Origin: Imperialibacter sp. EC-SDR9
Lineage (GTDB): Bacteria; Bacteroidota; Bacteroidia; Cytophagales; Cyclobacteriaceae
Direction of reading: 5' to 3'
NCBI RefSeq assembly: GCF_902498805.1
Contig: NZ_LR701574.1
Coordinates: 62,001-126,000, forward strand
DNA: 64,000 nt
The notes below the pieces were generated by a model. The model was not told the DNA's origin. It saw nothing but the letters and a program-made list of their open reading frames with translations, and made no database searches. The position numbers were made by a program, and so were the translations under genes. How positions within the stretch are numbered: position 1 is the stretch's first letter; each line of letters begins with the position of its first letter. This document shows, one piece after another, positions 21,237 to 24,624 of this stretch.

Positions 21237-22574
21237 CTAAAGAGCCAGGTCGGCTTCGCCGGTTTTTGTGGTTATTTCGCTTTTTCTAGCCAGAATAGCC
21301 AGCCCGAACGTTAGTACGCCCAGACGCCCCACGAACATCGTAAAAATAATTACCACTTTACCCCATGAGGTAAGGCCGCCTGTGATGCCCGTGCTCAAAC
21401 CCACGGTCCCAATAGCCGATGTGGTTTCAAACAAGATTTGGTGCAGCGGAAAATCTTCAGTCATAGCCAATAGAAATGTTGACATAAACAGCACCATAGC
21501 GTATAGCATAAAAACAGAAGTGGCCACATACAACCTTTCCAGTGGAATCACTCTCCCGAAAAAAGTAACCTGTTTGTGGTTTCTGATCCTGTTCCACATA
21601 ATGGCCACCAGGGCGGTGAGCGTTGTCGACTTCATGCCCCCACCTGTTCCTGAAGGCGAAGCGCCCACATACATCAGAAAAGTGGTTACCAGCAAAACGC
21701 CCAAACAAAAATTTCCAATAGGAACAGTATTGAAGCCTACTGTTGTAAGCGCCGTCATGGACTGGAAAAAGGAGGCCATTAGTTGATCCTCTCCCAAATG
21801 GCTAATCGATGGTTCAAAATAGTAAATCATAACAGTACCCAGTACGAGAAGCAAAATGGTGACGCCAAATATCGTTTTGGTCGTGAATGTTATTGCTTTT
21901 GTTTTTCCTGAAAGCCTGTTCCAAAAATCGGTGACCACAATGAAGCCCAGCGAGCCACAGATAGCCAAAACGGAAATGAGTATATTAAGGAACGTGTTAC
22001 CGGCAAATTGCTCAAAACTGTCGTTGTACAGGCCGAAGCCAGCGGTGCAAAATGCCGAAACACTGTGATAGATGCTGCTCCATACGGCGAAATTGGGTTC
22101 CACACCAGCCCGGATGAACGCTATGTAAAAACACAATGCCCCAATGGTTTCAATAACAACCGTGAAAATGATAATGGACTTTAAAAAATCCCTGATATCA
22201 AAGCCTTTTGGCATGGCAAACTCGGCATTCAGCACCCGCTGGTGCCAGTGCGACAGTGGGTTCTTTTTGGAAAGAAGCACAAAAGAGGTGAATGTCATGT
22301 AACCGATGCCGCCGATTTGGAACAAGGTCATGACGATGAACTGCCCCAACCAATTGTAGGTGTCAAACACGCTCACTGTTACCAGGCCTGTCGTTGAAAT
22401 GGCAGAAGTGGCAATAAATAAACTATCCAAAGCCGATACCGCTTGTTTGTGGACGAACGGCACACACAACAGAAGCCAGCCCATAAAAGTATAGCTCAAA
22501 AAACCATACAGCAGGTTTTGTTGTGGTGAAAGCGTCAGCTGAAATTTCCGGTATTTTTTAATTAGCCTATGCAT
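21237..22574 (-). CDS. trkH: TrkH/KtrB-family potassium uptake channel subunit
   Basis: 445 residues and multi-pass. Selectivity-filter-type segments typical of TrkH/KtrB are visible: AISTTGLVTVSVFD, SAFCTAGFGLYND, ALTTVGFNTVPIG and AIGTVGLSTGITGG. GASPSGTGGGMKSTT marks the family region near the intramembrane loop. The length is closer to KtrB than to long TrkH. It moves potassium (possibly with sodium) across the inner membrane, normally with an RCK subunit (TrkA/KtrA), which is not next to it here. It is the last gene of a unit with a KdpD/KdpE-like pair and a 49-residue membrane protein 6 bp upstream. Confidence 0.85.
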   Translation of the reverse strand: MHRLIKKYRKFQLTLSPQQNLLYGFLSYTFMGWLLLCVPFVHKQAVSALDSLFIATSAISTTGLVTVSVFDTYNWLGQFIVMTLFQIGGIGYMTFTSFVLLSKKNPLSHWHQRVLNAEFAMPKGFDIRDFLKSIIIFTVVIETIGALCFYIAFIRAGVEPNFAVWSSIYHSVSAFCTAGFGLYNDSFEQFAGNTFLNILISVLAICGSLGFIVVTDFWNRLSGKTKAITFTTKTIFGVTILLLVLGTVMIYYFEPSISHLGEDQLMASFFQSMTALTTVGFNTVPIGNFCLGVLLVTTFLMYVGASPSGTGGGMKSTTLTALVAIMWNRIRNHKQVTFFGRVIPLERLYVATSVFMLYAMVLFMSTFLLAMTEDFPLHQILFETTSAIGTVGLSTGITGGLTSWGKVVIIFTMFVGRLGVLTFGLAILARKSEITTKTGEADLAL

Positions 22575-22580
22575 GTCTGT

Positions 22581-22730
22581 TTATGAATGAAAATGTTTTG
22601 CGCAGGTATAAAGAGCAATTGCAACGCCCACTGCAATGATAGCAGGCCAAATCAAGTGCCTGATTTCCCTGTACCAATCGTGAATGGAATCGTAAAATTT
22701 GTGATTGTCTTCGTCGTAGAAAAAGTTCAT
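22581..22730 (-). CDS. 49-residue single-span membrane protein upstream of trkH
   Basis: This short frame starts at the ATG at 22730 and stops 6 bp before the trkH ATG. The head is acidic/aromatic and cytosolic (MNFFYDEDNHKFYDSIHDWY), followed by one hydrophobic span (LIWPAIIAVGVAIALYTCA) and a short basic tail (KHFHS). The size and position recall KdpF, the small subunit that stabilises KdpABC, but there is no sequence similarity that I can claim. Translational coupling to trkH and placement behind a predicted regulator site suggest a small partner or stabiliser of the TrkH channel (inference). Confidence 0.65.
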   Translation of the reverse strand: MNFFYDEDNHKFYDSIHDWYREIRHLIWPAIIAVGVAIALYTCAKHFHS

Positions 22731-22787
22731 TTGACCCTGTAGCTACCTGCTACTACAAAGGTCGGGCGGGAGGGGTATGTGAAAAAT

Positions 22788-22823
22788 CAAGGTTTAGCAG
22801 CCTGGCATAAAGATTTCATAAAG
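22788..22823 (-). promoter_or_regulatory. predicted KdpE-type operator and promoter for the small protein-trkH genes
   Basis: On the minus strand a direct repeat CTTTATGAAATCTTTATGC (22805-22823) has 11-bp spacing between the two CTTTATG units, as expected for OmpR-family regulators. Eight bases downstream is a weak -7-like TAAACCTTG (22788-22796). The block is a near copy of the one before the kinase gene (24589-24624): 17 of 19 bases match. It starts right after the response-regulator stop codon. Confidence 0.55.
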
Positions 22824-22824
22824 G

Positions 22825-23502
22825 CTATTGAAACCGATAGCCAACGCCGCTTTCGGTAATGATGTGCTGAGGGTTGTTTGGATTCTGCTCAATCTTTTTG
22901 CGAAGTGTGCCAACAAACACCCTCAGGTATTGGGTTTCTGTTTGATAGGTATATCCCCAAATTTCTTTCAGGAGATATTGGTGTGTCAACACTTTCCCTT
23001 CATTCTTTGCAAACAACGACAGCAAATTGTATTCGGTAGAGGTGAGCTTGACGATGGTTCCATTTCTTTTCACCAGCCGGGCAACCAGGTCAACCTCAAT
23101 GTCGCCACAAATAATCACGGCATTGTTTTCGGTGTTTTGGCTTCGCCTGATGGCAGAGCGAATCCTGGCCAGCAGCTCACCGGTTCGGAACGGCTTGCTC
23201 AGGTAGTCGGTGGCTCCGGTATCAAGGGCGGAAACAATATCGGTTTCGTTGTTCTGAACCGAAAGGATGATAATAGGTTTGTCGTACCATTCTCTAAGCT
23301 CCTTCAGCACCTGGTGCCCGCTTTTGTCAGGCAAACCAATATCCAGCAAAATCAGGTCTGGCGGATGGGCGGCCGATAACATCAGCCCTTCCTGCCCGGT
23401 AGCTGCTTGCACGATCTTATAGCCGTTGCCTTCCAAATTAATTTGCAGCAATTTCCTGATTGGCGCTTCGTCGTCGATGATCAGTATCTCAGCCTTATTC
23501 AT
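22825..23502 (-). CDS. kdpE: KdpE-like OmpR-family response regulator
   Basis: 225 residues from the ATG at 23502. The receiver domain has the acidic pair and phosphorylation site in place (LIIDDEAP; LILLDIGLPDKSG; the conserved Lys in YLSKPF). A C-terminal winged helix follows (LTSTEYNLLSLFAKNEGKVL, QYLRVFVGTLRKKIEQ). This is the normal length for OmpR/KdpE proteins. The start codon overlaps the last 8 bp of the kinase gene, so the pair is translationally coupled. With trkH downstream, a role in controlling potassium uptake is the natural reading. Confidence 0.85.
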   Translation of the reverse strand: MNKAEILIIDDEAPIRKLLQINLEGNGYKIVQAATGQEGLMLSAAHPPDLILLDIGLPDKSGHQVLKELREWYDKPIIILSVQNNETDIVSALDTGATDYLSKPFRTGELLARIRSAIRRSQNTENNAVIICGDIEVDLVARLVKRNGTIVKLTSTEYNLLSLFAKNEGKVLTHQYLLKEIWGYTYQTETQYLRVFVGTLRKKIEQNPNNPQHIITESGVGYRFQ

Positions 23503-24508
23503 TGTCCATGTCGGTATTTTGGGAAAACTCACAGGGAATCTCGATGGTGAATTTCGCTCCGCCCTCAGGCAGATTTTCCAGCAGCACCTGTCCGTTCATG
23601 GCTTCTGTAAAACCTTTTACAATGGGCAGGCCCAGTCCCGTGCCGCCTGATGCCGCATTTCGAAGCCGGTAAAATTTATCAAATACAAAATCAATTTCAT
23701 TTTCAGGAAAGCCATTTCCGTTGTCTGACACATGAATGACGCAGTGCGTTTCGCTGTGAGTCACACCAAGGCTAATAGTGGAATCGTTGGGTGTGTGGTG
23801 CAATGCATTGTGAATGAGATTGTGAAGTATTTGCTCAATCAGTCCGCTGTCTACTTTAAACAAGGGCAAGTCATTGTCGGGGGTGAATTCAATTTTATGC
23901 TGCCCGGTATCATCGGTGTTGTCTTTGATGGCGGAAAACACCAGCTCATTCATATCGCACCAGTCAGCTTTGGGCTGAATAAACCCAGCTTCAAGTCTGC
24001 TCATACTCAGAAGGTTTTCAACCTGCCTGTTCAGCCGGATGCCCGCCGTTTCAATCGCTGCATACAGTGCTTGTTTGTTGGCTTCCGAAAGGTCGATTTG
24101 ACCGTCTTTTATTGTGTCGACGGCGCCGATAATGGTGGAAATGGGTGTTCTCAATTCGTGGGACAATGAGTTGAGTATCGTGTTATAAAGCTTTATAGCC
24201 TTTGCCTTTTCTTCTTCATCTCTTTCCTTCTGCTCAAACTCCCTGAATTTGTAAGTGAGCACAGCATTGATGGAGGCAATGACAAAATACATCAGAAACA
24301 TCAGGCCATCTTCGGCTGTTCCGATATGGAAGGTGAGCGTGGGTGGGATAAAGAAAAAATTCCAAATCAACGCACTCAGCAGGGCCGAAAGCATCACCGG
24401 AAGGATGTCGAACAAAATAGCATTAAGTGAAACAGCCAGCAAAAGTATCAGTGCCACAGCGCTGTAGCCGATAAAATCAGTCAACAAAAAACACGCAGCG
24501 GCGGTCAA
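23495..24508 (-). CDS. KdpD-like sensor histidine kinase lacking the N-terminal KdpD/Usp domains
   Basis: About 337 residues counted from a TTG at 24508. The N-terminal hydrophobic spans (VALILLLAVSLNAILFDILP, FFIPP, FLMYFVIASINAVLTYKF) match the four-span DUF4118 sensor of KdpD. The kinase core follows: H-box SLSHELRTPI, N-box HNLIHNALHHTPN, G-boxes VSDNGNGFPE and GTGLGLPIVKG. The ~400-residue cytosolic KdpD and universal-stress domains of E. coli KdpD are absent. No in-frame ATG exists near the 5' end; the frame stays open upstream through YLISVLLIVL, which looks like the first membrane span, so the true start is probably a non-ATG codon within the ~70 bp upstream of 24508. Confidence 0.8.
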   Translation of the reverse strand: MTAAACFLLTDFIGYSAVALILLLAVSLNAILFDILPVMLSALLSALIWNFFFIPPTLTFHIGTAEDGLMFLMYFVIASINAVLTYKFREFEQKERDEEEKAKAIKLYNTILNSLSHELRTPISTIIGAVDTIKDGQIDLSEANKQALYAAIETAGIRLNRQVENLLSMSRLEAGFIQPKADWCDMNELVFSAIKDNTDDTGQHKIEFTPDNDLPLFKVDSGLIEQILHNLIHNALHHTPNDSTISLGVTHSETHCVIHVSDNGNGFPENEIDFVFDKFYRLRNAASGGTGLGLPIVKGFTEAMNGQVLLENLPEGGAKFTIEIPCEFSQNTDMDNE

Positions 24509-24588
24509 TACAATAAGTAAAACGCTTATCAGGTATTGATTTCTTTTACTATAGTTTCTTGTTATTAGTATGTCCAGCTTTTTTGTTA

Positions 24589-24624
24589 CAAAGGTAGCTA
24601 CTGGCGCATAAAGATTTTGTAAAG
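24589..24624 (-). promoter_or_regulatory. predicted KdpE-type operator and promoter for the kinase-regulator genes
   Basis: Minus strand: CTTTACAAAATCTTTATGC (24606-24624), a direct repeat with 11-bp spacing, followed nine bases later by TACCTTTG (24589-24596), an exact match to the Bacteroidota -7 consensus TAnnTTTG. There is no -33 TTTG; the repeat occupies that place, as expected for an activator-dependent promoter. Confidence 0.55.

Follow-up and report, generated by a model that had tools for sequence, protein, structure and literature searches.

Putative operators of a KdpE-like regulator upstream of kinase and trkH genes in Imperialibacter and related Bacteroidota

On the minus strand of the window, as the whole analysed stretch of 64,000 nucleotides from Imperialibacter sp. 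EC-SDR9 is called here, two nearly identical 19-mers precede a sensor-kinase gene and a potassium-transporter gene pair, which raises the question of which regulator reads these direct repeats and what it controls through them. The comparisons described below make it highly probable that the adjacent KdpE-like regulator uses the two sites as its operators, such that a short kinase would sense K+ and the regulator would activate both the kinase and the transporter promoters. The regulator family and the operator are known; the target and the promoter layout are altered. Within the open-licence PMC literature, judged by title and the start of the abstract, no description of a KdpE-type Trk/Kup regulon in Bacteroidota was found.

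Regulator, kinase and sites in the window

All features lie on the minus strand. The first site (CTTTACAAAATCTTTATGC, 24606..24624) is followed by the gene of a sensor kinase with the architecture DUF4118–HisKA–HATPase (23495..24577), in which DUF4118 is the KdpD-type membrane region, and by the overlapping gene of a 225-aa KdpE-like response regulator (22825..23502). The second site (CTTTATGAAATCTTTATGC, 22805..22823) starts one base past the stop codon of the regulator gene and precedes the genes of a 49-aa small membrane protein (22581..22730) and of the adjoining TrkH potassium transporter (21237..22574). The original prediction had placed two minus-strand 19-mers at these positions, differing at two bases and each built from half-sites spaced by 11 bp, and it is correct in all these respects. 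The half-sites are TTTACA-N5-TTTATG and TTTATG-N5-TTTATG. Both sites conform to the KdpE operator, i.e., two 6-bp TTTA(T/C)A direct half-sites separated by a 5-bp spacer, with the final A replaced by G in three of the four half-sites. The operator of kdpFABC in E. coli consists of TTTATA and TTTACA with a 5-bp spacer, as given in an excerpt of PMC3264566; the likeness, first described as a similarly T-rich E. coli KdpE site, therefore goes further and extends to an identical half-site and identical spacing.

With up to three mismatches allowed, the two 19-mers are the sole matches in the 64-kb window (shuffle mean 0.07), and the complete 6.8-Mb genome contains exact matches only at these two sites. 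At two to three mismatches the whole genome yields 14 more matches against nine with the reversed pattern, and these inexact matches are thus background. A search of the genome for other potassium genes carrying the site, which had been proposed as a check, gave a negative answer in this organism: four TrkH genes are encoded, and the exact 19-mer occurs only at that of the window and at none of the three further ones.

The regulator is the closest homologue of E. coli KdpE in its genome, where the KdpE query retrieves it first (47% identity, 219 bits; the next match scores 127). Its top PDB matches are KdpE 4kny (219.9 bits), 6lgq (218.8) and KdpE 4kfc (217.2), followed by MtrA at 158.8; entry 6lgq is labelled merely as a DNA-binding response regulator, but the sequence printed for it almost matches KdpE. 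R193, R200 and T215, which are required in E. coli KdpE according to the excerpt of PMC3264566, are present in the window regulator and in 80/80, 80/80 and 79/80 of its relatives, respectively, with one gap at T215. By its rank in the genome and by these residues, the protein is a KdpE-type response regulator. Its best NCBIfam model is likewise KdpE, and since the score of 241.4 bits does not reach the cut-off of 325, it is named KdpE-like and not a KdpE equivalog.

The window kinase lacks the N-terminal KdpD and Usp domains and hence does not qualify as a KdpD sensor kinase, and neither a KdpD-domain match nor a KdpA match was found in its genome. Its start codon is probably the CTG at 24577, because the frame aligns there with the GTG or TTG starts of many relatives. 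Many of the related kinase genes begin with GTG or TTG and few with ATG, 27–31 nt past the box, as the operator is called from here on.

Boxes and promoter layouts in related loci

A scan of GTDB genomes for the regulator returned 98 relatives, of which the best 80 were retained. In the best 80 of 98 regulator loci, the 19-mer pattern with up to three mismatches occurs at 95 sites and its reversed form at none. The operator consensus of the relatives is TTTATA-AAATC-TTTATA, and that of the weight matrix is CTTTATAAAATCTTTATAC. Scored with this matrix, which was trained on the same 80 loci plus the window in which the boxes were counted, 77 of the 80 loci contain a strong box of at least 19 bits, a cut-off chosen after the scores were seen. 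The exceptions are L061, with a box of just 18.2 bits, and L089 and L090, in which the regulator is present and no box was found. All 109 strong boxes lie upstream of a kinase gene (54), a TrkH/TrkA/Kup operon (52) or a porin gene (3), where genes were assigned by clustering and families by Pfam for examples only; of the ten boxes of 17–19 bits, five are unrelated. The expectation that other potassium genes should carry the site is therefore borne out across the relatives, at genes for TrkH, TrkA and Kup and additionally at porin genes.

Some arrangements separate the box from the regulator gene. An ABC-ATPase gene stands between the regulator and a box followed by kup in L046; the boxes of L091 and L100 lie upstream of TrkA or TrkH, with none behind the regulator; and in genome G129 the box is found upstream of kup, about 4.6 kb from the regulator. 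The box thus tracks the transporter and not merely the regulator. Additional boxes upstream of porin genes, at L057:6757-6775 (BBP2 by Pfam) and L062:6759-6777 (by clustering), suggest that an outer-membrane porin belongs to the putative K+ regulon.

The boxes occur in two promoter layouts, which are distinguished by the position of the −7 box. In Bacteroidota, housekeeping promoters contain TAnnTTTG at −7 and TTTG near −33, as stated in an excerpt of PMC7366714. Type A, the layout of the kinase promoter, has one box, with TAnnTTTG ending 17 nt past it; in the window, the G of the −7 box TACCTTTG (24589..24596) lies 17 nt past the box, as in many relatives. Type B, the layout of the trkH promoter, pairs a strong distal box with a weak proximal repeat located 32 bp further on, and its −7 box ends 49 bp past the distal box; in the window, these elements are the site at 22805..22823, the repeat CTTGATTTTTCACATACCC (22773..22791), 32 bp from it, and GACCTTTG (22756..22763), the G of which lies 49 nt past the distal box. 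The original prediction had assigned a −7-like box to each site, TACCTTTG at nine and TAAACCTTG at eight bases past it. Both are present as written, and TACCTTTG occupies the −7 position of the relatives, whereas TAAACCTTG (22796-22788) does not. The latter, which overlaps the start of the proximal repeat (22791-22773), was rejected as the −7 box of trkH because at this place proximal repeats of CCTTGAT- or TTTTATA-like sequence are found in most relatives, and xACYTTTG recurs 49 nt past the distal box.

Layouts were counted in 71 non-redundant promoters. These derive from 121 boxes scoring 17 bits or more, those of the window among them, of which 111 had complete flanks and scored 19 bits or more; a −7 match was defined as at least five of the six positions of TAnnTTTG. 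The match ends exactly 17 nt past the box in 65% of the 37 kinase promoters and 49 nt past it in 35%, while it ends exactly 49 nt past the box in 76% of the 34 other promoters. Within 47–50 nt, 31 of these 34 non-redundant promoters have a −7 match, compared with a mean of 1.96 and a maximum of 6 in 200 shuffles; −7-like matches are also found elsewhere in them, at 24 nt in 29% and at 17–18 nt in 15–18%. Both main positions are matched in eleven of the 71 promoters, and a single promoter has no match at either. The second, weaker repeat, 31–32 bp downstream of the box in the non-kinase promoters, has a mean best score of −3.7 (shuffle mean −28.4, sd 1.7); at the kinase promoters, among which one in three has the 49-nt layout, the corresponding score is −15.2 against −30.4 for shuffled sequences. 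With this distance, successive half-sites are spaced by 11, 21 and 11 bp and approximately share one face of the helix; the register of the −7 box to the proximal repeat is the same as its register to the box in single-box promoters. The members of alignments A1 (27 rows) and A2 (23 rows) were picked by their −7 match, and their invariant columns are therefore partly an artefact of selection.

In comparison with the housekeeping promoter described in the excerpt of PMC7366714, the −7 box is alike, whereas the operator or the proximal repeat replaces the −33 element and the type-B −7 box often lacks its first T. On the assumption that the −7 box has its centre at −7, as it does in Bacteroides, the distal box would extend from about −71 to −52 relative to the predicted start, near the footprint from −72 to −50 at the E. 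coli kdpFABC operator that is cited in PMC3264566.

These positions also bear on the sign of regulation. The adjacent regulator might bind the boxes and yet act as a repressor that blocks RNA polymerase under K+ sufficiency: at the kinase promoter the −33 region falls under the box, and at the transporter promoter the proximal repeat lies just upstream of the −7 box, so that binding could obstruct core promoter elements. We consider repression unlikely, given that the distal box stands roughly at the position from which KdpE activates in E. coli (PMC3264566, as excerpted). Furthermore, the initial T of the −7 box is retained in 22 of 23 type-A (single-box) promoters and in only 14 of 36 type-B (tandem) promoters, both sets being selected by a −7 match of at least four of six positions, and a −7 box that is weak at position 1 is expected of an activator-dependent promoter. 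Activation by the KdpE-like regulator is therefore the preferred reading.

At the kinase gene, the start codons (CTG in the window; GTG or TTG in many relatives) are located about 11–12 nt past the last base of the −7 box, from which a nearly leaderless kinase mRNA is predicted for the window and many relatives.

Co-occurrence of promoter and regulator, and the Kdp loci

R1, a sequence-only tandem-promoter model of 27 sequences that include the promoter of the window, was searched against 198 Bacteroidia genomes under filters that may lose weak matches. Matches at E ≤3.4e-4, a cut-off set in the score gap after the scores were seen, were obtained in 17 genomes, all of them within the 18 that have a regulator match at E ≤1e-60 (17/18 versus 0/180; Fisher p = 1e-23). 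The best match among the 180 genomes without the regulator has an E of 0.0026, and at E up to 0.01 the matches comprise 27 genomes, ten without the regulator. Two of the 17 genomes, G041 and G125, appear to overlap the 80 loci (as L048 and L054), and the promoters of these two loci are absent from R1. In G124, the 18th regulator genome, the box that follows the regulator gene is degenerate (12.6 bits). Among the R1 matches in the ten genomes that lack a regulator match at E 1e-60, L122 and L125 each contain a box of 15–19 bits, and L130 has an exact copy of the first 19-mer of the window; this copy lies inside a long ORF and was set aside as a chance match.

In the Imperialibacter genome itself, R1 recovers the trkH promoter at E 9.4e-11 and the kinase promoter as a partial match at E 0.02. 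No further match below 0.2 was found, and the next ones, with E from 0.245 to 5.03, include no other convincing site; the next match in order, L103 (CTTTATAAAGTCTTTACTC), which coincides with L010, one of the 14 inexact pattern matches, was rejected since it lies antisense inside an ORF.

A second alternative is that a different OmpR/PhoB-family regulator encoded in the genome recognizes the boxes. Direct repeats spaced by about 11 bp are widespread in this family, of which the genome encodes several further members. For PhoP, 7-bp motifs with a 4-bp spacer are described in an excerpt of PMC4832192. Such a reader is nevertheless very improbable, as strong promoter matches co-occur with the adjacent regulator in the proportions given above, and as adjacency, the KdpE-type half-site and the KdpE-specific R193 (PMC3264566, in part) point to the same protein. 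It is scarcely credible that the sites are an ordinary AT-rich promoter element (a spacer or −33 region) with no specific binder, alike by chance or local duplication: random matches at two to three mismatches do exist in the genome, but only two exact ones occur in 6.8 Mb, 77 of 80 loci have a strong box, which mostly lies at a fixed distance from a −7 box, and the 180 sampled genomes without the regulator contain no strong promoter match. The earlier view of the sites as KdpE-like operators of an OmpR-family regulator, upstream of the kinase gene and of the small ORF–trkH pair, is strengthened by these comparisons.

The Kdp pump itself appears in a different setting. KdpA scores above its family cut-off in 17 of 119 genomes of Bacteroidia. 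Within about 1.5 kb around the 17 kdpA loci (L138–L154), no box above 15.4 bits was found, and a gene with sigma-54-activator domains lies upstream of kdpA in 13 of them (six of six plus seven of ten loci examined, with L151 outside both sets); one of the seven activator genes in the ten-locus set is reduced to the lid and Fis-type HTH domains. In the sampled Bacteroidia genomes, control of Kdp therefore seems to lie with another type of regulator. In a scan for sigma-54 −24/−12 promoters before kdpA, the best scores barely exceeded those of shuffled sequences at most of the 17 loci (with a wrong kdpA frame taken in L154), and no convincing promoter was found. The ten regulator genomes and the 17 KdpA genomes do not overlap among the 119, with membership inferred; since this is expected by chance at P = 0.20, mutual exclusion of the regulator and Kdp is not claimed.

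A proposed potassium circuit and its relation to Kdp

We propose that low K+ or a related osmotic signal would be sensed by the short KdpD-like kinase, which consists of the DUF4118 membrane region and the kinase core, and that this kinase would phosphorylate the KdpE-like regulator, a dimer of which would bind TTTA(T/C)(A/G)-N5-TTTA(T/C)(A/G). The single box of the kinase promoter, covering the −33 region just upstream of a good TAnnTTTG −7 box, would lead to autoregulation of the kinase–regulator operon. At the transporter promoter, the strong distal box, at about −71 to −52, would act together with the weak proximal repeat, which lies 32 bp further along on the same helix face, to recruit RNA polymerase to the weaker xAnnTTTG box. 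Expression of TrkH and of the small protein would thereby be switched on; the tandem promoters of relatives would do the same for Kup, TrkH–TrkA or a porin. The short kinase is plausible as a sensor because several truncated forms of E. coli KdpD, as reported in an excerpt of PMC2714519, respond to K+ limitation, although they cannot repress at higher K+. No structure of a KdpE activation complex was found in the open-licence PMC literature.

Analogous to the KdpE–kdpFABC operator of E. coli, as far as it is described in the excerpt of PMC3264566, the system of the window displays the half-site, the 11-bp period, the KdpE-type recognition residues and approximately the same separation between the distal box and the expected start. 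Contrary to the kdp operator, the boxes of the window and its relatives precede genes for TrkH, Kup, TrkA or a porin and not kdpFABC, and the system is accordingly not a KdpDE–Kdp system; moreover, it has a second weak repeat 32 bp downstream, a Bacteroidota-type −7 box and an extra single-box promoter upstream of the kinase gene.

Split KdpD, in which a KdpD/Usp serine-kinase chain is separate from a chain with the transmembrane, GAF and histidine-kinase regions, provides a second comparison, and the excerpt of PMC11018627 names Bacteroidota among the phyla with the short KdpD chain. The window kinase resembles this arrangement as a histidine kinase that has the KdpD membrane region and lacks the N-terminal KdpD/Usp part. 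That survey started from Kdp-annotated species, whereas the Imperialibacter genome is without KdpA and without a KdpD domain. The window kinase also has no GAF-sized region between DUF4118 and HisKA, unlike L091 and L100. In these more distant kinases (513–514 aa), about 150 residues occupy the interval in which KdpD has its GAF domain, and this interval is absent from the shorter kinases tested.

The KdpE-type regulator, its site and the promoter layout recur across Bacteroidota upstream of non-Kdp potassium transporters. With this pair at Trk and Kup genes and the box missing at the sampled kdpA loci, a known regulator–operator pair appears to have been retargeted from Kdp to Trk/Kup, which suggests that regulator and operator are common with proteobacterial Kdp and that the target transporter has changed. 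A broader proposal is a partner swap in Bacteroidota, in which the KdpE-type regulator and the ancestral operator would drive Trk, Kup and porin genes, sigma-54 activators would govern Kdp, and the two promoter geometries would set different thresholds; for this composite proposal, we see the case for and against as evenly balanced. The comparison yields a sequence-defined potassium regulon for Bacteroidota, with precise predicted operators, −7 boxes and start sites, and places an OmpR-family regulator relative to the unusual −7 box of this phylum. In addition, a natural kinase cut to the KdpD-type membrane region and the kinase core could be a useful tool for asking which part of KdpD senses K+.

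Several smaller observations concern the genes of the cassette. A single-span membrane protein of about 50 aa with the pattern FFYDE...DWY..I..LI lies just upstream of TrkH operons in nine of the 80 loci (tblastn E up to 0.003; L021:4771-4926, L032:4973-5128 and others), and it is possibly a Trk accessory, placed comparably to KdpF. In six of the nine loci (L021–L026) it is followed by a soluble protein of about 115 aa, the L022 copy of which has no Pfam match.

In genome G158, locus L113 contains an unlinked, complete tandem-box promoter followed by 56 codons like the start of a DUF4118 kinase and then by stops, and the single DUF4118 match of this genome is elsewhere. L113 was rejected as a new target, as it resembles a truncated kinase start; it is probably a partial duplication of a kinase promoter region.

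Finally, the window regulator shares 87% identity with Flavobacteriaceae proteins (L021, L022) and only 62% with that of G158, a genome of its own family, while the own-family genomes G014, G095 and G127 have no match at E 1e-60. Because identity is higher to Flavobacteriaceae than within its own family, the cassette at 21237-24624 may have been acquired by horizontal transfer.
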